This document shows positions 9,365 to 21,907 of a stretch of DNA of 21,907 nt, in pieces. The notes under the pieces are model-generated. The model had not been told where the DNA came from, ran no database searches, and saw only the letters and a program-made list of their open reading frames with translations. The DNA comes from a virus. Position numbers and translations under genes: made by a program. The stretch is taken from positions 1 to 21,907 of the IMG/VR virus record IMGVR_UViG_3300024273_000237; one strand, given 5' to 3'. Position 1 is the first letter of the stretch; every line of letters starts with the position of its first letter.

Positions 9365-11410
9365 ATGAGTATTGATTTAGGAAATACACCAACAGGAACA
9401 CCACCTACCCAAGCCGAGAAAGAGCAAATTTGCGCAGCCATCGGGATGAGTGATGCGATTGTAGCAACCGCTGACGGCAAGTATCCAGCACTTGACGGTA
9501 GCTTGATTGCGAACGTTGTTGGTGAGCAGGGTCTACAGGGCATTCAAGGTCTTCAAGGTGAAGCGGGTGAAACTGGTGCTACTGGTGCTGATTCAACTAT
9601 TGCTGGTCCTCAAGGTGAAACTGGTCCTCAAGGTCCAACTGGTCCTCAAGGAGCGGAAGGGCTTATGCCAAATGTTGATAATGTTACAACTGGACCAGCA
9701 GGACCAGCAGGTGTTGTTGAGGGATTAGATGATATTTTAGCAAGAATTACATCATTAGAACAATATTCACCATTAACAAATGTTAGTAATGGCGCAGTTT
9801 CAGATATTACTTATAAGAATAAAGAAGAAATTACACTTGGAGAAAAATTACAAAATATAACAATAAATAGTGAAGGTGGATCAGTACCTTGGACTCCCGA
9901 TATGCTTCCTGGTATGCAATTATGGTTAGATGCTAGCGATTTAACAAGTATAGGAACATCTTGGACTGATAAATCAGGAAATGTAAACATAGTTGAAAAG
10001 AATGGTAATCCAACATTAGTAACAGACACTAACAGTGGATTGAAAATGATTCATTATTCAGTCGACACGTTAGATAACCACGAACTTACAAATACTATTA
10101 ATGGTATAAATACAGTCTTTTGGGTATTTAATGATACTGGTCCAAGGCCCCGAGCTAACAACGAATTCATCTCCATCCTAGGAGGACCTGCTGCGCCTGA
10201 ACCATTCTATCGGGATAACTATGGTGCATTATGGAAATGGAATCAAGGGCTTGGAACGCACGAGACTAATAAAGCATACATCAATGGTTTAAGAGGTACT
10301 GATGCTAATACTCAGTTTATTCCTACTACACTAAGTGTTTTATGTGTTAAATCAGAAGCCCTTGGTGCTGCTGGTTTTCCTGTTACAGGATTTGGGACAA
10401 AGTATGGTGCTGCTGCTGGTTTTGAAGGTAATTTAGGTGAATTGATATTATTTGACTCATATTTGTCAGAAGACGATATAACAAAAGTTGAAGGCTATCT
10501 ATCACATAAGTGGAATTTGAACAGTGATTTGTTATATGAGGCAGACACATCACACCCTCATTTAATATTACCACCAATGAACGATAGTGGCGTGATAGTA
10601 GAAGGTTGGTCTAAATCATCTGGAATGTGGGACCCTGCACAATTACAACAAGGAATATTACAAGGGAATGGAATGCCTGTGTCTATCAAGCAGTCAGTTG
10701 AAACATTACCTAATGAAATTTATGATGTTAATGTTGTAAGAGCAGATGAAAATGAGGCTTTAGTTATTAAATTATCAACAGATGTTAATGTAAAATGGTT
10801 ATCACACGCAGATGATATTACAGATACAGTTGATGTTCCTTTTAATACAGTTGCTAGATTTCAAGTTATAGGAAATGAGACACCAACTTACATAGAGGTT
10901 GATACAATTAATGATACAAATCAAATTACATCAATGTCTATGATACATAAAAAAATAGCAAATGGAGCTATTGAAGTATTAACAAATAACACTATTAAAA
11001 AAACTGCTGGTGTTGATGGTTGGAATGCAGGTACTTCTTCTACTGAATTTATCAGTGGTCAAGGAGAGGGCTATGTACAATTTCAAATGGGTCAATCTGG
11101 AAAGGCTATTAAAGTTGGTTTGATACATAACGATGTTGATTATGTAAACACTGCTCCATATGAAATGTTATTCTTTGAATCCTCTATACAGATTCAAGGG
11201 GTTGTTAGGGATACTTATGTTTCTGGTGATTGGTTTAGGATTAAACACGATTCAGTGAATAATCAAATAGTCTATCAAAAGAGAGATTCAAACTTAGACT
11301 ACCAAACAATCTATAGTGACACGCTTACAACAGACGGTCGCAATCTATATTTAGATACAAGTTTCTTTCACCTAGATGGAAGAATTAACGATGTAAGTCT
11401 TATTAATTAA
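9365..11410 (+). CDS. Collagen-like / LamG-like tail fibre or adhesin
   Basis: A 681-residue modular adhesin. Residues 1-50 form an N-terminal head domain. Gly-X-Y collagen triplets run from 53 to 99 with one break near 76-80, and a short GPAGPAG lies at 110-116. A short coiled-coil segment, LDDILARITSLEQ (121-133), probably sets the trimer. A concanavalin/LamG-like sandwich spans about 180-385, with MQLWLDASD at 184-192, WTDKSG at 200-205, LGELILFDSYLS at 358-369 and VEGYLSHKWNL at 375-385. A linker domain follows, then a second beta sandwich from about 545 to 681. Base composition falls sharply after about 9670. Arg codons are 6 AGA, 3 AGG and one each CGA, CGG and CGC, with no CGT. Receptor or polysaccharide binding is the likely job. 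Confidence 0.85.
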   Translation: MSIDLGNTPTGTPPTQAEKEQICAAIGMSDAIVATADGKYPALDGSLIANVVGEQGLQGIQGLQGEAGETGATGADSTIAGPQGETGPQGPTGPQGAEGLMPNVDNVTTGPAGPAGVVEGLDDILARITSLEQYSPLTNVSNGAVSDITYKNKEEITLGEKLQNITINSEGGSVPWTPDMLPGMQLWLDASDLTSIGTSWTDKSGNVNIVEKNGNPTLVTDTNSGLKMIHYSVDTLDNHELTNTINGINTVFWVFNDTGPRPRANNEFISILGGPAAPEPFYRDNYGALWKWNQGLGTHETNKAYINGLRGTDANTQFIPTTLSVLCVKSEALGAAGFPVTGFGTKYGAAAGFEGNLGELILFDSYLSEDDITKVEGYLSHKWNLNSDLLYEADTSHPHLILPPMNDSGVIVEGWSKSSGMWDPAQLQQGILQGNGMPVSIKQSVETLPNEIYDVNVVRADENEALVIKLSTDVNVKWLSHADDITDTVDVPFNTVARFQVIGNETPTYIEVDTINDTNQITSMSMIHKKIANGAIEVLTNNTIKKTAGVDGWNAGTSSTEFISGQGEGYVQFQMGQSGKAIKVGLIHNDVDYVNTAPYEMLFFESSIQIQGVVRDTYVSGDWFRIKHDSVNNQIVYQKRDSNLDYQTIYSDTLTTDGRNLYLDTSFFHLDGRINDVSLIN

Positions 11411-11463: not shown

Positions 11464-12132
11464 ATGGCAGACTTTACAGTATCAACAGACATAGACACTT
11501 TCCTACAGAGTGCAGATAACGCAGCAGCACGTGGCTCGCTGGGAGCAATCAACTACCCCTACACTACTGACTTTCAGTCAGGAGTAGAGCAGACTCGAAA
11601 CCTTACTACGATTACATCTTCAGATGGGTATCTTTACAGCAGCGTTACCAGCATTTACGTTGGCAGCAACGTTACCAGCATAGGGTCTAGGGCATTCTAT
11701 TTCAGCACCCTGTCGAGCGCAACCATCAGCAGCGGTGTCACCAGCTTAGGGTCTTACTGTTTCTCTTTCTGCCCCCTGACGAGCGTCATCATTCCCGATA
11801 GTGTCACCAGCATCGGGACTCGTGCATTCGAGCAATGCAGCAGCCTGACGAGCGCAACTATCGGCAACAGCGTCACCAGCTTAGGGTCTGAATGTTTCGC
11901 TTTCTGCAGCAACCTGACGAGCATCATCATCCCCGACAGCGTCACCAGCATCGGGTTTAGCGCATTCGGTTCCTGCACTAACCTAGCAACAATTAACTGC
12001 TTTGCATTAGCCGCTCCTCTTTTAGGGGCAACTCCATTCAGTGGAATTGCAGCTACAGATATTCACGTCCCAGTAGGAGCAACAGGATACGGAACTACAT
12101 ATGGAGGTTTGACAGTTGTCGCAGACTTATAA
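11464..12132 (+). CDS. BspA-type leucine-rich-repeat fibre protein
   Basis: A 222-residue protein. Residues 1-30 (ADFTVSTDIDTFLQSADNAA, ARGSLGA) are a head motif I recognise from other phage fibre proteins, suggesting it attaches to the virion. Residues about 61-180 are LRR_5/BspA-type repeats of 22-23 residues with the core TSIG..AF..C..LTS..I.DSV. The five units alternate between two kinds (ABABA). The C-terminal part, from NCFALAAPLL to the end, is the cap typical of BspA-like proteins, with PVGATGYG. BspA-type LRRs bind proteins or surfaces in bacterial adhesins. Here a receptor-binding or decoy role is inferred. The nucleotide repeats invite recombination and variation in repeat number. 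Confidence 0.82.
   Translation: MADFTVSTDIDTFLQSADNAAARGSLGAINYPYTTDFQSGVEQTRNLTTITSSDGYLYSSVTSIYVGSNVTSIGSRAFYFSTLSSATISSGVTSLGSYCFSFCPLTSVIIPDSVTSIGTRAFEQCSSLTSATIGNSVTSLGSECFAFCSNLTSIIIPDSVTSIGFSAFGSCTNLATINCFALAAPLLGATPFSGIAATDIHVPVGATGYGTTYGGLTVVADL
11671..11990 (+). repeat. 66/69-base tandem LRR-coding repeats (ABABA)
   Basis: The phrase GT(C/T)ACCAGC begins units at 11671, 11737, 11803, 11872 and 11941, giving spacings of 66, 66, 69 and 69. Units 2 and 4 (TSLG..CF.FC) match each other better than their neighbours, as do units 1, 3 and 5 (TSIG..AF). This points to past duplication of a two-unit block of about 135 bases. Confidence 0.85.
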
Positions 12133-12147
12133 TGATTGCAGACCTAT

Positions 12148-12948
12148 ATGAGTAAAAAATTACATTTCGTATCTGGTCTTCCCCGAGCTTGCTCCACGCT
12201 GCTCTGTAATCTACTTGCACAGAACCCACGGGTTCACGCTACCCCTACCAGTGCCTTGCACGAAATAGGATATATAGCTCGTCAAGTGTTTCAGACTGAA
12301 GAAGCAAAAGCTGTGGATATGAAGAATGTCCTTGAGCCTATGTATCTGGACTACGTCAAAGCTGGCTGTGAGAATGCTTTCAATAGCATCACGGACCGCC
12401 CTGTAGTTGTAGACAAATGCCGCTCTTGGGTTGGTCACCTCGACCAGCTCTTTAAAGTATGGCATAATGCTAAAGTTCTTGTCCCTGTCCGTGATATCCG
12501 TGGCATCCTCTCTAGTATGGAGAAGAAGCGCAGACAGCATCCCGAAGTATTTAATGGTGCAGAGCAACAGAACCCGCAGAATTGGACAACGATTGATAAG
12601 CGTGTCAACGGATGGCTGCAAAGCCCTCCAATTGGAATTGCTATTGAGAGACTCCACGAAGCCAAGGAACGCTTTGGCGACAAGCTTATGTTCGTTCACG
12701 CAGAGGACTTAACAGAGAACCCTCAGGACGTAATGAACAAAGTCTGGGAGTATCTAGGCGAAGAACCATTCATCCATAATACATCCAACGTAGAGCAGTA
12801 TACGCAAGAACACGATGTAGGCTTCCCTTATGGAGACCACGTCATTCGACAAGAAGTAAAACCTTTAAAGAAAGACTGGCACGAGACACTCGGTCGCCCG
12901 CTGTCAGAGCAACTTAACCAAAAATTTGATTGGATAAACAACTTATGA
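12148..12948 (+). CDS. Sulfotransferase
   Basis: Predicted cytosolic PAPS-dependent sulfotransferase of 266 residues, moving sulfate from 3'-phosphoadenosine 5'-phosphosulfate to an unknown acceptor. The 5'-phosphosulfate loop is at 8-19 (VSGLPRACSTLL; the usual form is PRSGSTLL). The 3'-phosphate site is VLVPVRDIRGILSSMEKKRR, with the conserved Arg and Ser present but Ile instead of Pro after Asp. VDKCRSWVGHL matches the segment before it, and MFVHAEDLTENPQDVMNKVW plus EYLGEEPF matches the usual C-terminal EDL..P...FLG pattern. The start at 12148 is taken over an in-frame TTG at 12136. It lies between the LRR fibre and a fibre chaperone and overlaps the chaperone start by four bases (ATGA). 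Substrate could be host or virion glycan, or protein tyrosine; this is not visible. Confidence 0.88.
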   Translation: MSKKLHFVSGLPRACSTLLCNLLAQNPRVHATPTSALHEIGYIARQVFQTEEAKAVDMKNVLEPMYLDYVKAGCENAFNSITDRPVVVDKCRSWVGHLDQLFKVWHNAKVLVPVRDIRGILSSMEKKRRQHPEVFNGAEQQNPQNWTTIDKRVNGWLQSPPIGIAIERLHEAKERFGDKLMFVHAEDLTENPQDVMNKVWEYLGEEPFIHNTSNVEQYTQEHDVGFPYGDHVIRQEVKPLKKDWHETLGRPLSEQLNQKFDWINNL

Positions 12949-13505: not shown

Positions 13506-13901
13506 ATGACACCAGAACTAATAGCAATGCTAGGCGGCGGCGTAAGCGGCTTCGTAATGAAGATGATCGCAGCGCAGTCCGAGAATCAGGCACGTCTCTT
13601 TGAGCGTATGCTCCAGAAGCAGGTAGCAGCAGATGACTCAGCGGATCGGGCATCGGCTCGTGGAGGCGTGTATATGCGCCGTCTTATTACAGCGGCTGTT
13701 ATCTTTGCTATTGTACTGGCTCCATTCGTCTTTGCATTCACTGACATAGGTGTTACCCTTCAATCGGAATCCAAAGGCTTCCTAGGGCTATTCAAGAGCC
13801 TTGAGTGGAGCACTGTACAGGGTTTTGTTATCCTGCCAGAGATCCGTCAAACAGCTTTAGCCATTGTAGGTTTTTACTTTGGTTCATCCCAAGTTAAATA
13901 A
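13506..13901 (+). CDS. Membrane protein with two predicted spans (holin or virion membrane protein candidate)
   Basis: A 131-residue protein. The N terminus has a Gly-rich amphipathic segment (MLGGGVSGFVMKMIAAQ), then a charged helix with RLFERMLQKQVAADDSADRA. A clear membrane span covers about 59-78 (RLITAAVIFAIVLAPFVFAF), and a second, weaker one lies about 103-126 (TVQGFVILPEIRQTALAIVG, FYFG). AAGGA lies five bases before the ATG, one of the few good Shine-Dalgarno sites here. With the preceding 55-residue protein it makes a membrane pair just upstream of the tail nozzle gene. Lysis timing or a membrane-associated step of DNA entry are both possible; I cannot decide. Confidence 0.75.
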   Translation: MTPELIAMLGGGVSGFVMKMIAAQSENQARLFERMLQKQVAADDSADRASARGGVYMRRLITAAVIFAIVLAPFVFAFTDIGVTLQSESKGFLGLFKSLEWSTVQGFVILPEIRQTALAIVGFYFGSSQVK

Positions 13902-13969
13902 TTAATAAACTATCAGCTAATTACTGCAGCCGTAAGGCTTGGGATTGCTAACAACCAGAGGAATAATAC

Positions 13970-16570
13970 TTGTCACGCTATCGCACATACGGAAGTCAAG
14001 ATGACCCCATCCAGGATGATATGGATGCAGGGTTCATTGGGTTTAATAACTATAGCCGACCTGATCAGCTTACCTCGGGTATGCTTGCCTCTAGTTCAAA
14101 TGGACGCATAGGCAAGAACGGAGAGTGGCAGGTACGAAAGGGTATCAATGTAATTAAAGCACCCTTTGCTTCTGGCGACGATGTACTGCGTCTACCTACT
14201 AATGCAGAGATCCTAGTAAATCCAACCGTAGTTGGCCTACTGCCTACTACGATTCGGTCAGCCAGCTTAGACAGTGCTAGCAGTGAGGTATCTATTGTTA
14301 TTGATGACCCAGCGGTAGAGCCAGACTTAGATCCAGGTCACGTTTTTATTGCAGGTGATGAAATCTACGTAGAGAACTTAGTAAGCACTACTACTGACCC
14401 TAATGGCCTGCATACGATCACGGACGTAACTGGCAATGGTACTACGATTACTATCAAGTACGCCTTGGCAGGAGCCAATGAAACCTACGGGACTGCACTT
14501 ACGCTACCGTTTAGCTTGAATGACGCAGGCGTACAGCCTGCACTGACAGTACTTACTGATTCCCCTGTAATTGGTTTTAATATGGTCTTCGATCAAGGGG
14601 CTGTTTCAGCCGTGTACTCAAGTACAACTTTTAGTGACCCTAATCAGGATAACAATCAGTTCATTGTCCTAGCATCTAATATTAGTGCAGTAGCTACTGA
14701 CTTAAATGATACTAGCGTATCCATTACAATGGGCTATCCATTGAATGAAAACGTACCACCTGCAAGCAGTATGCTTCAGGCATTTAACAAACTCTTTATT
14801 TTCCGTGACGGACAGACTGCACTAGAGAACGACAACTTCTTTAGTCCTATTGCCATTGCGGCAGCAAGTACTCCTGCTGCATCAAATGTAGTTACAGTAA
14901 GTAGTAACTTACCTCACGGCCTAGCTATAGGCGATGCAGTTACAATTTCTGGACTTACTGAGTCCCCTGTAATTGACGAGGACCCCAATGGAACTTGGGT
15001 TATTAATACAGTACCTGATTCTACTAGTTTTACGTATGACCTTCCAGCTGCTTTTCAAGCAGCAGCTACTTATACGGTCAGCGCACTGTCACTTATATCT
15101 CCAGGTTTTAAACTGGTAAAGAGTGGGCAATTTTCTCAGCCGTCAGAGTTAGCACCAAGCAAGGTCGTAATAACTAGTGGTCAAGCAATAGCTACGTTTA
15201 CTAGTACAATTGCAATGAACGGCACTAGGGTTGGAGATGCAATTGAAATTGAAGCAATTGGTAATTCTACATTTATTAAAGGATCGGATTATATAATCTC
15301 AGAAAGAACGGAAGGGACTACTACGGGTTCAAATACTTTGTCCTTTTATGCTCAGGAACCAGATACAAATGCTACTGGTTCTACTAATGTAACTTTTCAG
15401 CAGCACGTATCTCAGGGCCTTGGGTTCTCTCATATGCCTGCACCAGAGTACGCAGCATATCACCAGCGTAGGCTGGTAATGCCCTTTAAGTACAGCGTAG
15501 ACGATGCAGTTGATACCTTTACGTACCGCAAGATCCTAGACGAAGTAATTATTTCTGACATCTTGGACTCGGATACCTACGACCAGATCTACGGTCAGTA
15601 CAGGTTTAATGCAGGTACAGCGGACTTTAACGTAGCTCTGCATTCCTTCTCGGATGACAAGCTATTAGTATTTAACCGTAACAGCGTCCACCTAGTAGGT
15701 GGAGCAGGAGTTAATTCAACGGTGCAGTTAATTACGAACGAAGTAGGATGCGTAGCTAGACAGAGCATCGTGCAGGTAGGAAACAATATTTTGTTTCTGT
15801 CGGACAACGGTGTATACGGTGCTAACTTCCAGGACCTTTACAATCTGCGTGGCAACGAAGTGCCACTAAGCTCAAGCATTAATCCAACTATAGAGCGGAT
15901 CAACAGAGCCGTCTGGGACAAGAGCGTAGGAGTATACTTTGATAATAGATACTACTTAGCTGTCCCTCTGGATGGCAGCCAAGTCAACAACGCTATCTTG
16001 ATCTTTAACTTTATTAACAAGCAGTGGGAGAGCATTGACACTACTGCTGCGGCTAACTGGAACATTGCTAACTTAATTGTTGCTGGTAAGAAGTCTGATC
16101 GTGCAGTATATGCGGTCAACACACTTGGCGGTTTGCACAGGCTTGATGCCCGTGTAGATGCAGCGGACTTACTTTCTACTGAGATACCTGTACAGGATCA
16201 GGAGGCTAGCGTAGCGTATAATATACCAGCTGCTGTTACCACTAGGCAGTTTACGATGGGAACTATGAACCGTAAGCGTTGGAACAGCTTTGAGCTGCAC
16301 GTGCAGTCATCTGTGGATAATGAGTCCGACCTGAGCATTAGCGCAGAGCTAGAAAACATTGACGCAGTTGTAGAACTTGGTACACTGAATAAATTAAACT
16401 CAGGTACTAACCTAGCTATTGACGAGGATGTTTCCGTACGTGGTAGAATAGGTAACAATCGAGCATACGGAATGCAAATCACCCTCAATAATACAGTTGG
16501 CCGCCCTCGATTCAGAGGAATTAGAGTTAGTGCAGCTGAAGCATTTAGATCAATAAATAAAGCAATATAA
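13970..16570 (+). CDS. Tail nozzle / tail tube B-like beta-propeller protein
   Basis: An 866-residue protein expected to form the lower tail tube (T7 gp12, the nozzle, is about 790 residues). Near the N terminus, FNNYSRPDQLTSGMLASSSN then GEWQVRKGINVI (25-62) matches the family opening, in which a PDQ..PG..... stretch leads to RKG. Propeller-like strands appear in the second half: RRLVMPFKY, then EVIISDILDSDTYDQIYGQY, DKLLVFNRNSVHLVGG, and GCVARQSIVQVGNNILFLSD. The middle holds Ig-like inserted domains with repeated VTVSS and FTYDLP patterns. The start is TTG with AGAGGA eight bases upstream; an in-frame ATG lies 17 codons in. The adaptors it should contact are 5 kb upstream, separated by the adhesion block. 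Confidence 0.82.
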   Translation: MSRYRTYGSQDDPIQDDMDAGFIGFNNYSRPDQLTSGMLASSSNGRIGKNGEWQVRKGINVIKAPFASGDDVLRLPTNAEILVNPTVVGLLPTTIRSASLDSASSEVSIVIDDPAVEPDLDPGHVFIAGDEIYVENLVSTTTDPNGLHTITDVTGNGTTITIKYALAGANETYGTALTLPFSLNDAGVQPALTVLTDSPVIGFNMVFDQGAVSAVYSSTTFSDPNQDNNQFIVLASNISAVATDLNDTSVSITMGYPLNENVPPASSMLQAFNKLFIFRDGQTALENDNFFSPIAIAAASTPAASNVVTVSSNLPHGLAIGDAVTISGLTESPVIDEDPNGTWVINTVPDSTSFTYDLPAAFQAAATYTVSALSLISPGFKLVKSGQFSQPSELAPSKVVITSGQAIATFTSTIAMNGTRVGDAIEIEAIGNSTFIKGSDYIISERTEGTTTGSNTLSFYAQEPDTNATGSTNVTFQQHVSQGLGFSHMPAPEYAAYHQRRLVMPFKYSVDDAVDTFTYRKILDEVIISDILDSDTYDQIYGQYRFNAGTADFNVALHSFSDDKLLVFNRNSVHLVGGAGVNSTVQLITNEVGCVARQSIVQVGNNILFLSDNGVYGANFQDLYNLRGNEVPLSSSINPTIERINRAVWDKSVGVYFDNRYYLAVPLDGSQVNNAILIFNFINKQWESIDTTAAANWNIANLIVAGKKSDRAVYAVNTLGGLHRLDARVDAADLLSTEIPVQDQEASVAYNIPAAVTTRQFTMGTMNRKRWNSFELHVQSSVDNESDLSISAELENIDAVVELGTLNKLNSGTNLAIDEDVSVRGRIGNNRAYGMQITLNNTVGRPRFRGIRVSAAEAFRSINKAI

Positions 16571-16573
16571 GAT

Positions 16574-17272
16574 ATGGCTACAATTACAATTACCCCAGGA
16601 AACTCATTTACGGCTACTGAAGCTGTAACCTCTACTAAGCTCAATGACCTTGGCTCGCCTACGGCGGCCTTGACTGCTGCCTCGATAGGTACTGCGGACA
16701 TTGCTGATGATGCAATTACTACTGCGAAGATTCTTGATGCTAATGTTACCACTGCGAAGATTCTAAATGATAACGTGACCACTGCGAAGATTGCAGATTC
16801 TAGCGTAACCAAGGCTAAAATGGAAAACATTTCTGCTCCGTTGAGAGTCCTTGGCCGCACTACGGCCGGCGCAGGTGTAGCTGAAGAAGTGACTATCAAT
16901 AATGATAATACTATGTCTAATGCATCCGCCAGTACTCTAGCTACGGACGCAAGTATTAAGCAGTATGTAGATACAGCCGTAGGGAGTCCTGACGCATTTG
17001 ATCCTGCTACTTATATAGGCGGAGAAACTACTACGCTTCCCAACGGCTTGATTATGAAGTTTGGAGCTGTATTTATTGGCGGTAATTCTGGAAGTAAAAA
17101 TATTAGTTTTGCACCAGCATTCACTGATAGTTGCATTAGCGTTGTATATTCATCGGAAGTGGCTAGTCTGGGGACCTCGTACGTTTTCAATAAATCTAAA
17201 ACTGGCTTTTCCATCTTTTTTTTAAGTGGTAACAACAATCGTGCGATAAGCTGGCAAGCATTCGGATACTAA
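16574..17272 (+). CDS. Tail fibre with gp53-like C-terminal domain
   Basis: A 232-residue fibre protein. Residues 1-40 form a short attachment region (TITITPGNSFTATEAVTSTK). Residues 48-83 are ten-residue shaft repeats with consensus VTTAKI.D.N. A segment common in phage fibres, DNTMSNASASTLATDASIKQ YVDT, follows at 111-134. The end, about 155-232 (LPNGLIMKFG, SFAPAFTDSCISVVY, TGFSIFFLSG, finishing WQAFGY), matches the gp53-like C-terminal fibre domain, which forms the receptor-binding tip. The stop TAA overlaps an ATG that opens the broken copy of the gene at 17959. Fibre assignment is good; the receptor is unknown. Confidence 0.85.
   Translation: MATITITPGNSFTATEAVTSTKLNDLGSPTAALTAASIGTADIADDAITTAKILDANVTTAKILNDNVTTAKIADSSVTKAKMENISAPLRVLGRTTAGAGVAEEVTINNDNTMSNASASTLATDASIKQYVDTAVGSPDAFDPATYIGGETTTLPNGLIMKFGAVFIGGNSGSKNISFAPAFTDSCISVVYSSEVASLGTSYVFNKSKTGFSIFFLSGNNNRAISWQAFGY
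16721..16792 (+). repeat. 30-base fibre shaft repeats
   Basis: ACTGCGAAGATT occurs at 16721, 16751 and 16781 with exact 30-base spacing, encoding the ten-residue shaft units. A fourth, diverged unit follows. Confidence 0.85.
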
Positions 17273-17298
17273 TGAACCCCCTCCTTCAATCAGCTTAA
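17272..17298 (+). pseudogene. Remnant of the 5' end of the gene at 17959
   Basis: Bases 17272-17293 are identical to the first 22 bases of the gene at 17959-17980 (ATGAACCCCCTCC, continuing through CAATCAG). Here the frame ends after eight codons (MNPLLQSA, stop). It marks where that gene used to follow the first fibre before the second fibre gene arrived, or a copied junction. It is the left half of a direct-repeat pair around the 17310-17957 fibre gene. Confidence 0.85.
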
Positions 17299-17309
17299 CA
17301 ATTTAAATT

Positions 17310-17957
17310 ATGCCCATTATAAACAAAGGAACATCGTTCTCCAACGGAGAACAACTTACGGCTGACAAGATCAACAACCTGTTGGACCTAGCTACGTTTG
17401 ACCAGTCAGCTACTGACAGTGCCTCGACTACAGTTAATTCTGCCAGTCAGATTGTAGTACAGGACAGTGGTATTACTACCGCTAAGCTGGCTACGGATGC
17501 TGTAGAGACAGCTAAGATTAAAGATGCAAACGTTACCTTTGCAAAGCTTACCGATGTCATTGATGATGACACGATGACTGGAGCTACCGATACTACCTTG
17601 GCTACCTCAGAAAGTATTAAGTCCTACGTCGATACAACACTGAATAATCTCCCAGGTATTAAAGCTCACTGCGTGTGGGATGGAACCGCAACAGGAACAA
17701 ATGCCCCGATTAGCGGAAGTGGAGTCACAAGTGTAACTCGCAATGCTATTGGTCATTGGACTATTAATATGTCCGTTACTGCTCCATCTTCTTCTTTTAC
17801 AACCCTAACAGATTCGTCTTCTTTTAGTGGTACAACTACTAATTATGCAACTGGTTCGTATCAAACTAGCACTACAACTGTAGATGTATTCCGTGAGAAT
17901 GCCAGTGGTGCTGGTAACGATGGCAGTCAACCAATATCTTTCGCTGCTATTTGGTAA
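17310..17957 (+). CDS. Second tail fibre (shaft paralogue, different tip)
   Basis: A 215-residue fibre protein. Like its neighbour it begins with an attachment stretch (MPIINKGTSFSNGEQLTADK), then shaft repeats (DSGITTAKLATDAVETAKIK, DANVTFAKL) and the segment DDDTMTGATDTTLATSESIK SYVDTTL. After residue 115 it has a different Ser/Thr-rich tip (KAHCVWDGTATGTN, HWTINMSV, ending ISFAAIW). So the shaft is shared and the tip has been exchanged. It is bracketed by a 22-base direct repeat, suggesting arrival as a unit. Two fibre types could bind different receptors or form a mixed fibre. Confidence 0.85.
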   Translation: MPIINKGTSFSNGEQLTADKINNLLDLATFDQSATDSASTTVNSASQIVVQDSGITTAKLATDAVETAKIKDANVTFAKLTDVIDDDTMTGATDTTLATSESIKSYVDTTLNNLPGIKAHCVWDGTATGTNAPISGSGVTSVTRNAIGHWTINMSVTAPSSSFTTLTDSSSFSGTTTNYATGSYQTSTTTVDVFRENASGAGNDGSQPISFAAIW

Positions 17958-17958
17958 T

Positions 17959-17980
17959 ATGAACCCCCTCCTTCAATCAG
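17959..17980 (+). repeat. Right copy of the 22-base direct repeat flanking fibre 2
   Basis: Identical to 17272-17293. This copy is the intact start of the downstream gene. The two copies lie 687 bases apart and enclose the second fibre gene. Confidence 0.9.
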
Positions 17981-18441
17981 TACAACTAGCGTTGCAAAAC
18001 GCTACGCAAAAGGAAGCCCTTGTCTACATCGACAAGGTAGTGGACTTCTGTATTGAAAAGGAGAACGGCAAGGTACTGGACGGATGGCCTCGTGACTTAA
18101 TACAACTCCTTGTGGCCTACCATATGGCCAAGGATACCTTTATTGCAGAGCAGGACGCAGAGGGTAATATCCTAGGGGTCTTTATGTGGTATAATTGCGA
18201 CGAGGAAGACGACTGGTTCTTTGTTCAGAACTGGGAGTCGGACAAGGAAGACGGCAATGCAATCTTTATGGCCTTCCTATTTGCGGAGGATAATAAATCT
18301 TTTAAGAAACTTACACATAACTTCATTACTCAATGCCCTGAGGTTATGCAGAAAAAACTACTAGGCATACGATACAGACAAGGTGCTCCCACTAAAGTGG
18401 TATACAGCACTGCATTATTTAACAAAATCTTAGGAATATAA
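17959..18441 (+). CDS. Small acyltransferase-like protein linked to fibres (tentative)
   Basis: A 160-residue acidic protein. The order of elements recalls an N-acetyltransferase-like fold: an N-terminal helical region (QKEALVYIDKVVDFCIEK), a helix (WPRDLIQLLVAYHMAKDT), then strands FIAEQD, NILGVFMWYNC and DDWFFVQNWESD, then a helix with AIFMAFLFAED. The C terminus has KKLLGIRYRQGAPTKVVYS. No clear cofactor motif is visible, so the call is weak. The start at 17959 follows the fibre stop by one base (TAA-T-ATG) and its first 22 bases are duplicated at 17272. Repeated placement behind fibre genes suggests a role in fibre modification, assembly or injection. Confidence 0.75.
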   Translation: MNPLLQSVQLALQNATQKEALVYIDKVVDFCIEKENGKVLDGWPRDLIQLLVAYHMAKDTFIAEQDAEGNILGVFMWYNCDEEDDWFFVQNWESDKEDGNAIFMAFLFAEDNKSFKKLTHNFITQCPEVMQKKLLGIRYRQGAPTKVVYSTALFNKILGI

Positions 18442-18442
18442 T
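18437..18442 (+). promoter_or_regulatory. Possible -10 box abutting a start codon
   Basis: TATAAT spans the end of the upstream gene (stop at 18441) and ends three bases before the ATG at 18446. No -35 or TGn extension is visible and the spacing is short for transcription to include the start codon, so it may simply reflect the AT-rich leader style of these genes. Confidence 0.2.
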
Positions 18443-18445
18443 ATT

Positions 18446-19648
18446 ATGGGAGGCGGAAAAGGAGGATCAGCAAAAGCACCACCACCAATTGACCCTGGAA
18501 AGTCAATGGGTGAATACTTATTCGGTAAAGGCTTTAGTGGTCAATACCAAGGCATCACGGACCCTCGATTGCAGGATCGTCTGATTGCTTCGGAGGCTCA
18601 GTATCGTCCGCAGTACACTGCCCTAGAACTGGCTGACATTGGCGTAATGGCTCAAGGTATTGAGGCTGGTGCAGATAACCCTGCGTACGCAAGTCTACAG
18701 AATGAACTGACTGGACTCAAGGCAGGACAAGAGTACGAAACAATGAGCAGCTCTGAGCGCAAGGCTGCTATTGAAGCTTCTGCTAATAGTCTGTTCCCTA
18801 GTAAGAGAGCATCACGCAACCTGCGAGGTAATCGAGGTATGTCTGGTCGTGGCAATGCAGAACAAGCTAAAAAACGAGCGGAGTACATTAAGGCCGCTGG
18901 TGCTGGTGGTCAAGATCGTGCTGCACGTATTGCACAGATTGAGGCACAGATGCAAGGTATGTCTCCAACCCTTAAGGGTACTCCTGGCTTGTTTGACCTC
19001 CTTGAAGAGCAGTCAACCCGTGCAGGTGCATTACAGCGCAGTGAGTTAGATCTACAACGTGCCTCCGATGTAGGTGCACTAGAGGAGTACGCTCCTCAAG
19101 TAGTAGAGGCTTACCGTGAAGCTGACCCTTACAGCACAGGACTAGCCGAACAGCAGACTGCTATGGCAAATGACCTGTACCAACGTGCACAGGGACTTAA
19201 CCCAGAGCAGCAGCGTATAGCTGATCAACAAGCACTAGGAATGGCGCAACGTCAGGGACGTGTAACGGATCAAAGTGCAGTTGCTGGGCAACTAATGGGA
19301 CGTGAGCAGTACCTCTCTGGCCTTCGTGGTCAGGCAGCAGGTATGGGGCAACAAGCTTTTGGTATGAACCGTCAGCTTGCTGGTGACGTAGGTATGACTA
19401 TCTTAGGTCGTCCTTCTTCTTCCATTAACCTTGGCGGTCAAATGCTAGGACAGGCACAGGCTGGTGCAGCAGGACCTATGGGGCCTCAGTTGTTCGATCC
19501 TAATGTAGGGTTGAATATGGCTATGCAACAGCGTGGTCAGGACGTTACGTTCCAAGGTATGCAGGCTCAGGCTAAGGCAGCAGGGCAAGCAGGAGTAATG
19601 GGCGCAGTTGGTGCAATTGGTGGTGGATATTTAGGCGGCCTAGGTTAA
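18446..19648 (+). CDS. Internal virion (ejection) protein candidate
   Basis: A 400-residue protein, low in Cys and rich in Gln, Ala and Gly. It opens with MGGGKGGSAKAPPPIDPGKS. Long helical Gln-rich stretches follow (LQRASDVGALEEYAPQVVEA, GLNPEQQRIADQQALGMAQR). The end is Gly/Ala-rich and membrane-friendly (AGVMGAVGAIGGGYLGGLG). Proteins with this composition, a Gly-rich end and placement at the end of a podoviral late operon are usually ejected into the cell ahead of DNA to build a channel. No catalytic motif is visible. Position and composition support the call; the exact homologue is not recognised. Confidence 0.72.
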   Translation: MGGGKGGSAKAPPPIDPGKSMGEYLFGKGFSGQYQGITDPRLQDRLIASEAQYRPQYTALELADIGVMAQGIEAGADNPAYASLQNELTGLKAGQEYETMSSSERKAAIEASANSLFPSKRASRNLRGNRGMSGRGNAEQAKKRAEYIKAAGAGGQDRAARIAQIEAQMQGMSPTLKGTPGLFDLLEEQSTRAGALQRSELDLQRASDVGALEEYAPQVVEAYREADPYSTGLAEQQTAMANDLYQRAQGLNPEQQRIADQQALGMAQRQGRVTDQSAVAGQLMGREQYLSGLRGQAAGMGQQAFGMNRQLAGDVGMTILGRPSSSINLGGQMLGQAQAGAAGPMGPQLFDPNVGLNMAMQQRGQDVTFQGMQAQAKAAGQAGVMGAVGAIGGGYLGGLG

Positions 19649-19667
19649 AACTTAAAGAAAATATATT

Positions 19668-20357
19668 ATGGCATTTCAAACAGGTACAAAAGTAGATCCC
19701 CGTCTAATGCAGGCGGATTACAGCGGCTTTACAAACGCCGCTAGCATACAAGCGAACGCACTGTCTAAACTCGGTGAGCAGATTGGTGATGGTATAAAAG
19801 ATTACCAGAAAGCTAAACAAAAGAAAAAAGATGACGAAGATTTTAAAAGTGCAATCATGCCAACTTTGCTGCAAATGTCCGAGGGTAATGTAAAGGAAGC
19901 GCAGGATACAGCTAATATGATAATGAAGAATCCTAAGCTATATTCTGATGTAATGTCAGCAAAGAATATTTTAGCACAGGAGGAAAAAAACAATATAAAC
20001 TTGTCAATGATCAATGGAGTAGCTGGTGGTACTATCACCCCCCAGGATGCATTAGCAGCAGGAGTTTCACCTGCTCAAGTTAAAAGTGCTATGGAAATTG
20101 GTAACTATGATCCTTCGGTTACGGCATCTACTTTAAATAGCATTCAAGGTGCAATGACAGAATCAGGGGTTAAATTAAATCCAGAAACAGGACAATACTT
20201 TAAGCCAAATACAGGTATTCCCCTTTTTCCTTTTGATAACACTGAAGTACCTGTTGACTTTAATGTCAAAGGAGCAAAAGAATACAGCGAAATATACAGT
20301 GATCCTGGCGTAACTGCATTTGATCCAAATAAGTATAAACTTCTATCAACTCAGTAA
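19668..20357 (+). CDS. Probable internal virion protein
   Basis: A 229-residue protein, largely helical. It begins MAFQTGTKVDPRLMQADYSG, then a helix with SKLGEQIGDGIKDYQKAKQK and a Lys-rich run. A repeat-like helical region of about residues 60-150 follows (LLQMSEGNVKEAQDTANMIM, ITPQDALAAGVSPAQVKSAM), and a less ordered tail ends KYKLLSTQ. It sits between two larger ejection-type proteins with AT-rich leaders on both sides. A role as the middle member of a three-protein ejection set, as in T7 gp14-15-16, is inferred from order and size only. Confidence 0.65.
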   Translation: MAFQTGTKVDPRLMQADYSGFTNAASIQANALSKLGEQIGDGIKDYQKAKQKKKDDEDFKSAIMPTLLQMSEGNVKEAQDTANMIMKNPKLYSDVMSAKNILAQEEKNNINLSMINGVAGGTITPQDALAAGVSPAQVKSAMEIGNYDPSVTASTLNSIQGAMTESGVKLNPETGQYFKPNTGIPLFPFDNTEVPVDFNVKGAKEYSEIYSDPGVTAFDPNKYKLLSTQ

Positions 20358-20368
20358 AATAAAACAAT

Positions 20369-21907
20369 ATGGCTGTATCCTCCGTCCTTGCGCCTAATGG
20401 AAAAACTTATACCTTTGAGCATCCAGATGGTGCATCTCAAGAGGATCTATTTAAGTTTGTTCACCAATCTTCTCAGGTTAAACCTAAAGCTCAGGCTACA
20501 AAGCCTGGAGTTGTAGAGAATGTTGCTAGGAGTATACCTGCGGGTGCAGCTGCCGCTGGCTACGATGTCCTTGGTGCTATTGGCACAATGGCATTGGAGG
20601 GCCTAGGCAAGTACGCAAAGGCAGGATCAGATCCTGAGTACGCTGAAAAAATGGATCAAGCCGTTCGTGGTGCTCAGGAGAAAGTTTCTGAGTACACGTT
20701 TGACATTGGTGCTACAGCAAATGAATCCTTTGGGGTAGATCAAGGACGCTTCAGCGCAGATGTTGGCGGTGGACTTGGACAGCTTCCCGTAATGATTCTT
20801 ACGGGTGGTCTTGCATCTGTCCCTATGTCATTTGCAGAAGTTATTAAGGATGCAGAGCAATCCTTAGATGTTAAGTATTATGACATGACCGAAGACCAGA
20901 AGTCCAAGGTAGCCGCAACTGGCGGTGCCTATGCGGCTTTCTCTTTAGCTGCGGATCGAATCGGTCTGAAGTATATGGGACTCACTAAACTAAATAAATT
21001 CTTTGATGGTTCTGAAACTGTCAAGGGAAGTATAGTTAAAGATGTTTTGAAGGGTACACTGGGTGAAGGACTAACTGAAACATCGCAGGCAGTAGTAAAG
21101 GATCAACTGGCTAGGGTCTATGACGATGACCGAGAGTACAACATAGATAGTGTAAAGGGATATTTATATGAAGGTGCAGTGGGTGCCACAGTAGGTGGCA
21201 TTGCTAGCACAGGTACATCTGTAGTAAAAAATATTGGTAGTGAAACTTCGGTAACAAAGAAGTCAGACCTAAAGAAACCAGTAGAAGAAAGATCAGAGCT
21301 TACTATCCCTGATGCGGTTACAGTAACCTACAAGCCAATTGATGGTCCCGTAAGGACGGTATCATTAGCCATTGATCCTGGCCAAGATCCAAGGGCAGCA
21401 GTCGAAGCAGAACTAGCTGGTCGGTACGATACAACGCACCCAATGCAAATTGATACGGTCAGTGCACCTGCCCCTGTTGGTCCTGAGCAAGAGCTAGACC
21501 TACCTAACCAAGCACCTGATGCTACACAGGAGCAAGTACCTGTGCAGCCAGAGGCTGCTGTAGAGCCTCAAGTAGTAGAGGCTGAAGCACCTGTTGTAGA
21601 GCGAGCACCCGCAGAGCAAGTCCTCCCTGAAGTTGTGCCGCAGGTTGTACCTGCTACAGAGCAGGCACCCGTGGTCCAAGAGGAAGTACCTGCCGCAGAG
21701 CAGGAACCAGAGCCAGCACCAGAGCAAGAGCAAGCACCAGCAGTACGTGGCAACTTCCGTATTTCTCCAAGGATGGCTAAGTCTAAGCCAAGGTACAGAG
21801 GTCAGACCGTTGCGTATGATTCGGAACTTGAGCTTGCTGCTTACATGGCAACTGCCAAAGGAAAGAACGCCTCTAAAGTTCGGTCAGAGTTAATTGAAGC
21901 TGGGTAT
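20369..21907 (+). CDS. Large internal virion protein, N-terminal 513 residues (3' end outside window)
   Basis: The frame runs from ATG at 20369 to the window end without a stop, giving 513 codons. The first 35 residues contain NGKTYTFEHPDGASQEDLFK, a short motif I have seen at the start of other large phage proteins. Residues about 50-310 are Gly/Ala-rich with hydrophobic stretches (ARSIPAGAAAAGYDVLGAIG, GGLGQLPVMILTGGLASVP, YEGAVGATVGGIASTG) that could insert into membrane. GEGLTETSQAVV lies in between. Residues about 366-457 are a Pro/Glu/Gln/Val-rich linker of repeated short phrases. A new basic domain begins at about 457. This is probably the gp16-type ejection protein; any enzymatic domain lies outside. 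Confidence 0.8.
   Translation, partial: MAVSSVLAPNGKTYTFEHPDGASQEDLFKFVHQSSQVKPKAQATKPGVVENVARSIPAGAAAAGYDVLGAIGTMALEGLGKYAKAGSDPEYAEKMDQAVRGAQEKVSEYTFDIGATANESFGVDQGRFSADVGGGLGQLPVMILTGGLASVPMSFAEVIKDAEQSLDVKYYDMTEDQKSKVAATGGAYAAFSLAADRIGLKYMGLTKLNKFFDGSETVKGSIVKDVLKGTLGEGLTETSQAVVKDQLARVYDDDREYNIDSVKGYLYEGAVGATVGGIASTGTSVVKNIGSETSVTKKSDLKKPVEERSELTIPDAVTVTYKPIDGPVRTVSLAIDPGQDPRAAVEAELAGRYDTTHPMQIDTVSAPAPVGPEQELDLPNQAPDATQEQVPVQPEAAVEPQVVEAEAPVVERAPAEQVLPEVVPQVVPATEQAPVVQEEVPAAEQEPEPAPEQEQAPAVRGNFRISPRMAKSKPRYRGQTVAYDSELELAAYMATAKGKNASKVRSELIEAGY

Follow-up and report, generated by a model that had tools for sequence, protein, structure and literature searches.

The window analysed here is the whole stretch of a virus fragment of 21,907 bases, and the genes of its fibre locus lie on the plus strand. 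Directly upstream of the locus is a large tail or virion structural gene (13970..16570), an ORF with weak PHROG matches to virion structural proteins, which holds the same position in 91 relatives. Its product was used as the backbone marker for the tree. The ORF of fibre 1 (slot 1, 232 aa, 16574..17272) matches PHROG tail fiber. Its stem matches the cyanophage P-SCSP1u fibre 8i4m, and its C-terminus is a Gp53-like_C domain (Pfam PF21882, residues 155-232, E 3.1e-08). The slot-1 tip cassette extends from the SIKQYVD neck codons to the last codon (16952..17269), as placed from changepoints in relatives and from the coordinates. The ORF of fibre 2 (slot 2, 215 aa, 17310..17957) has the slot-2-type anchor MPIINKGTSFSNGEQLTADK, and the same anchor occurs in slot 2 of relatives. 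Its tip cassette (17613..17954, SIKSYVD to the last codon) belongs to a tip type that adjoins the downstream gene in the relatives L049, L059, L065, L071, and L095. In the AlphaFold2 model of fibre 2, whose overall pLDDT is only 66, the SIKxYVD region is in the helix of residues 100-112 and is followed by a beta-rich tip. Residues 141-215 form blocks mostly with pLDDT of 83-94 and one block with 67. A fold search with the fibre-2 tip gave no significant match, the best being a tailspike with an E of 0.043. The downstream gene (160 aa, 17959..18441), an ORF present in 74 relatives, is referred to as the 17959 gene. The model of its product (pLDDT 79) is predicted to have an acyltransferase or GNAT-like fold, with 4whn as the best PDB match (TM about 0.55, 14% identity). 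This nearest solved structure, at low identity, is a bacterial protein acyltransferase. Elsewhere in the window, we observed a sulfotransferase-like gene among the virion genes (12136-12948; PF13469, E 4.8e-14), a BspA-type leucine-rich-repeat protein (11464-12132; PF13306) with five DNA-level repeats spaced 66-69 bases, and a long fibre-like protein with collagen-like repeats (9365-11410).

An exact 22-base direct repeat, ATGAACCCCCTCCTTCAATCAG, is present at 17272-17293 and 17959-17980. The second copy is in its proper place as the opening 22 bases of the 160-codon 17959 gene, the start of which reads MNPLLQS in 99 of 107 cases. The first copy shares its first A with the TAA stop of fibre 1 (17270-17272), as the final base of that codon. 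Read from its own ATG, it encodes the eight codons MNPLLQSA and then meets TAA (17296-17298), which makes a dead-end minigene (17272..17298) whose coding sense decays in relatives. The two copies are spaced 687 bases apart with fibre 2 exactly in between. The flanking bases differ at both ends (17271 A vs 17958 T; 17294 C vs 17981 T), so the repeat length is exactly 22 in the window. The preliminary description had reported the perfect repeat and its spacing, the dead end across the fibre-1 stop, and the placement of fibre 2, and the window sequence bears these out. Further copies were absent from the window even at ≤3 mismatches, and 100 trials of dinucleotide shuffling gave 0 matches to ATGAACCCCCTCCTTCAATCAG at up to 3 mismatches. 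The pair is exact and shows no sign of adenine-directed variation of the kind a diversity-generating retroelement would leave. It is also direct, and no inverted repeat pair, such as would surround alternative tips in a Gin/Cin-type fibre inversion or a shufflon, brackets the fibre locus among the 25 longest listed. We refer to the first copy as the remnant, a putative leftover of the 17959-gene start and candidate 3' homology arm of the slot-1 tip; homologous remnants are found in 36 other distinct slot-1 junctions. It is followed by the slot-2 leader CTTAACAATTTAAATT (17294..17309), which is common to most remnant-bearing relatives.

Relatives were collected by an IMG/VR scan with the 17959 product, which gave 74 loci, and by added pattern scans. 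We compared 91 distinct loci that span the region between the tail gene and the 17959 gene in full, both genes included. Cultured phages gave no match in a near-identity search with window positions 13900-21907 or in a protein search with the 17959 product, and one scan of bacterial genomes found no slot-1/slot-2 junction. In the relatives, each slot has an anchor type of its own. Two fibre ORFs are present in 72 of the 91 loci, three in 4, and one in 15. The single-fibre loci require 4 changes on the tail-protein tree and fall mostly in one nested clade, and the two-fibre loci span the tree with its deepest branches included. It had been proposed that fibre 1 was ancestrally followed by the 17959 gene and that fibre 2 was inserted later. 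The occurrence of two-fibre loci in 76 of 91 cases, including the deepest branches, contradicts this order. The expected junction, a fibre-1-type anchor directly before the 17959-gene start, does exist in L068, but this locus sits within a group of two-fibre phages and appears to be derived. An insertion of fibre 2 as a unit, duplicating the junction, would account for a repeat that flanks fibre 2 exactly in one window. However, the two-fibre state is usual and occurs throughout the tree, the remnant is found with many different tips, and the best-supported exchanges described below replace tips and not whole fibre genes. We consider such an insertion to be extremely improbable. As a recent event in the window, it is refuted by the fibre counts and the tree of the 91 loci.

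A recognisable copy of the 17959 start, defined by at most 7 mismatches in 22, lies behind fibre 1 in 30 of 76 multi-fibre loci and is absent in 46; overall, there are 37 distinct junctions with a copy. Behind the copy, the slot-2 leader of the window usually recurs. The preliminary description had asked for other tips between the same repeats, and many relatives with quite different tips have the repeat present or partly preserved. The repeat is thus not private to the phage of the window. Five relatives have a longer copy of about 28-31 bases, which ends in ...CAGTACAAC or ...CAGTTCAAC in L002, L003, L087, and L036 and in ...CAGTTCAATTAGCTTAAC in L005. These longer copies indicate that the 22 bases of the window are probably the residue of a longer copy, and the short form of the window seems to have arisen from the long one by deletion of 9 bases.

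A remnant would also be left if a fibre gene had been duplicated in tandem once, long ago, together with roughly the opening 31 bases of the 17959 gene; it would then be merely inherited without a role in exchange. Most remnants have one right edge, between CAATCAG and CTTAACAATTTAAATT, and the others (L005; L002, L003, L087, and L036) resemble 9-base deletion variants of the longer form, which indicates one or few founding events. The slot-1 and slot-2 anchors also look like paralogues. However, the remnant is unclustered on the backbone tree, its presence requiring 25 changes vs 23.9 when shuffled, perfect and decayed copies are mixed among near relatives, and tip-specific spacers and variants accompany the remnant. 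Remnant variation is independent of backbone lineage, and the presence of the remnant appears unrelated to backbone phylogeny. The tip groups behave similarly on this tree, with 28 observed vs 30.7 shuffled changes in slot 1 and 29 vs 28.5 in slot 2. L017, the nearest relative by tail protein (96%), differs from the window in the tips of both slots and is without a full remnant. Duplication by itself is an unlikely explanation. The first remnant could have come from an old tandem duplication of a fibre and the gene start, which may account for how the remnant began but not for its present behaviour.

The moving part of the locus is the tip, roughly the last 100 codons, and not the whole fibre gene. 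Clustering of the last 75 residues gave 21 tip groups, 11 of which occur in both slots. Among 3,959 pairs of slot 1 and gene start, 8 had tips that were 93-98% identical, and the next best pair reached 77%. Since the tips of L023/L061, L088/L004, L046/L047, and L089/L066 are related, these 8 pairs amount to about four events that are independent of each other. The corresponding tip lineages (about four, 93-98% DNA identity) are located behind fibre-1 anchors or directly before the downstream gene, depending on the phage. Across the left changepoint, identity rises from about 0.5 to about 0.95. The changepoint is within 3 bases of the SIKxYVD codons in 5 of the 8 pairs: L023 and L061 vs L032 (changepoint -303, motif -303), L037/L046 (-315, motif -318), L039/L089 (-354, motif -354), and L039/L066 (-356, motif -354). 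In L088 and L004 vs L069, it is 81 bases inside the tip (-282, motif -363), and L037/L047 has no clean tip boundary (-537). On the right side, the match runs through the stop codon and the 22-mer and collapses at or just before the end of the 22-mer, a sharpness that is partly built in, as the sequence after the remnant necessarily differs between the slots. Near-identical tips are thus present in both slots of different phages, with mostly sharp left boundaries and a right boundary in the 22-mer. The homology available for exchange is the SIKxYVD codons on the left and the 22-mer or 17959-gene start on the right. Pairs of slot-2 fibres with alike tips and divergent downstream genes have high identity over the first 45 bases, and the drop occurs inside the 17959 gene anywhere from about base 41 to 276. 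This spread indicates a right crossover zone broader than 22 bases. The extra spacer TAAA is common to slot 1 of L088 and slot 2 of L069. The CTCTCTTGCA variant in slot 1 of L037 is that of L046/L047 but not that of L037's own gene start. Both agree with transfer as one piece. The earlier view of the repeat as the record of a recombined fibre cassette is correct in placing recombination at the fibre locus, but the unit is the tip and not the whole fibre gene. The suggestion that the repeat can be a crossover site without a dedicated recombinase is also upheld.

Fossils of displaced tips are also found. In L021 (5954-6003), 47 bases ending in codons for ...AGPVYFQAVGY and a stop lie behind the stop of the new tip and before the 17959 start; they are the stranded end of a Gp53-like tip behind a newer tip of another type. 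In L006, L009, L010, L011, and L025, an extra copy of the gene start is followed by leftovers of 32-37 bases that read as an older tip end (...TELR, stop). L060 and L067-L070 have a second kind of gene-start passenger (L060:5436-5516, L067:6001-6081, L068:3864-3944, L069:6001-6081, L070:3884-3964), in which the usual 17959 start contributes about 60 bases that end in a stop and lie immediately ahead of a divergent homologue beginning with ATGAAAGGAAACCCC. As a separate observation, the fibre ORF of L020 (4707-4769) stops early and leaves the tip remainder ...ISFAAIW beyond the stop, by a frameshift or a sequencing error, and the ORF of the very similar L019 reads through.

The remnant resembles the gene starts that adjoin related tips. 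In a haplotype permutation over the 32 pairs whose tip identity reached 0.6 or more, in which relatedness was not controlled, the mean mismatch was 2.06 vs 2.70 permuted, and 0 of 2000 permutations were as low. Homogenisation within a genome is at most weak, with 2.79 mismatches to the own gene start vs 3.22 to others. The TA[ATG] stop overlap is found in 31 of 37 remnants vs 65 of 107 real starts. In the aligned register, MNPLLQS is retained in 17 of 37 slot-1 remnants vs 99 of 107 real gene starts. ATG is missing from this register in 7 remnant rows; two of them (L004 and L005) are shifted by small insertions, and the true losses are five (L032, L056, L059, L067, and L101). L004 and L097 (3513-3540) have nine consecutive C in the remnant, in place of the five C followed by TCC seen in others. 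The decayed coding sense indicates that no peptide is being kept. We conclude that the remnant decays between transfers, and transfers likely renew it. At the 17959-gene start itself, the synonymous conservation measure is 0.27 vs 0.39 in the rest of the gene. As this is not the lowest stretch, there is no strong sign of DNA-level selection, and the amino acids there appear to be simply conserved.

The remnant might alternatively be a translated leader or RNA element behind fibre 1 that couples translation into fibre 2. Reinitiation would fit with its TAATG overlap and with a stop that precedes the fibre-2 ATG by 11 bases, and the spacer is constant at 37 bases in many loci. On the other hand, 20 of 37 remnants no longer encode MNPLLQS, at least 5 are without ATG, and 46 of 76 two-fibre loci have no recognisable copy. 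RNA folding of four junctions gave structures no better than shuffles, and no Rfam match was found. We regard a coupling role as very unlikely.

For the window, it is simplest to suppose that slot 1 received a slot-2-type tip together with at least 22 bases of the gene behind it. Many relatives have the Gp53-like_C tip type of fibre 1 immediately ahead of the 17959 gene, joined to it by the same ...GGATACTAATGAACCC junction. The C-terminus of fibre 2 is ...FAAIW, which is likewise a slot-2 tip in L049, L059, and L071. A donor of the fibre-1 tip was not found among the relatives compared. With this tip as query, one relative only was obtained; L101, the nearest, has 80% identity over the tip region, in slot 1 with a decayed remnant. 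Identity between the window and L101 is 95-100% over about 16680-16980, much above both flanks, which is another sign of recombination near the neck motif. The left homology between slot 1 and slot 2 of the window is short, consisting of AGTATTAAG plus scattered bases. A slot-2 copy of the fibre-1 tip (≥90% identical) would be expected to adjoin the gene start CCCCCTCCTTCAATCAG.

We propose that tips are exchanged among phages and between slots, and that the 22-mer came to slot 1 as a passenger from the 5' end of the 17959 gene and then acts as a right homology arm. From the sequence comparisons, we hold this to be quite probable. Two fibre genes lie in tandem at the locus, and each combines an N-terminal anchor and stem specific to its slot with a conserved neck motif (LATxxSIKxYVD in most) and a C-terminal tip that can be exchanged. 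The 17959 gene follows slot 2, usually by the stop/start overlap TAATG. Recombination would have its left end at or near the neck-motif DNA and its right end in the first bases of the 17959 gene. A slot-2-type tip moving into slot 1 would carry along a piece of the 5' end of the 17959 gene. The 22-mer at 17272 would be such a passenger, giving slot 1 the right-hand homology arm of slot 2, and more slot-2 tips could then enter. Ordinary homologous or annealing recombination of the phage or host likely drives the exchange. A more tentative idea, which we consider rather doubtful, is that the 17959-gene start is a portable, self-spreading homology arm. Each tip transfer would plant a copy and open the slot to the pool of slot-2 tips, and selection would keep this recombinase-free shuffling.

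In T-even phages, recombination and duplication of the adhesin at the distal fibre tip reportedly change host range, and the conserved motifs are said to sit in the adhesin itself. The fibre locus differs in that its arms would be a block of codons for the neck helix and, downstream, the 5' end of an unrelated gene, it has two fibre slots, and it is known from sequence alone. In bacterial rhs genes (Jackson et al. 2009, PMC2935791), a conserved core has exchangeable C-terminal tips, old tips are left downstream as fragments, and homologous recombination is the proposed driver. The leftover tips downstream in L021 and in L006/L009/L010/L011/L025 are similar. Unlike Rhs, which has silent-tip arrays and a proposed circular intermediate, the present locus has phage fibres, two tandem slots, and the start of the next gene as the right arm. 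It works like Rhs displacement but is not a member, as its proteins are fibres (Pfam Gp53-like_C, PHROG tail fiber). In Litunavirus (PMC9786124), the tail-fibre gene and a short downstream gene recombine as a region between genera, which likewise involves a fibre and its adjacent downstream gene; the available text of that report describes one fibre gene, however, and no repeated gene-start remnant. Work on metaviromic islands of marine phages (PMC3909814) shows under-recruitment of fibre C-termini in metaviromes, indicating that tips vary within populations; this is a population pattern, described in the text available without boundaries or a slot-to-slot mechanism. Tip exchange as such is already known from T-even adhesins (Tetart et al. 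1996, cited in PMC6957217 and PMC9603124), Litunavirus fibres, and marine hypervariable fibres, and Rhs displacement works alike. Provisionally, within a limited literature, we met with no account of a locus in which two tandem fibre slots have a common right arm derived from the next gene's start.

The odd dead-end gene start behind fibre 1 would be explained as a by-product of tip swapping. Phage host range is thought to change largely through the swapping of fibre tips, and the crossover points are rarely visible. The tips are the likely host-gripping parts and may determine host choice. In the present comparison, both ends of the swapped piece can be seen in about a hundred uncultured sequences. 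The passenger from the neighbouring gene would be a tag that marks tips that have changed slot, by which the flow of tips in natural phage populations may be traced from sequence alone.
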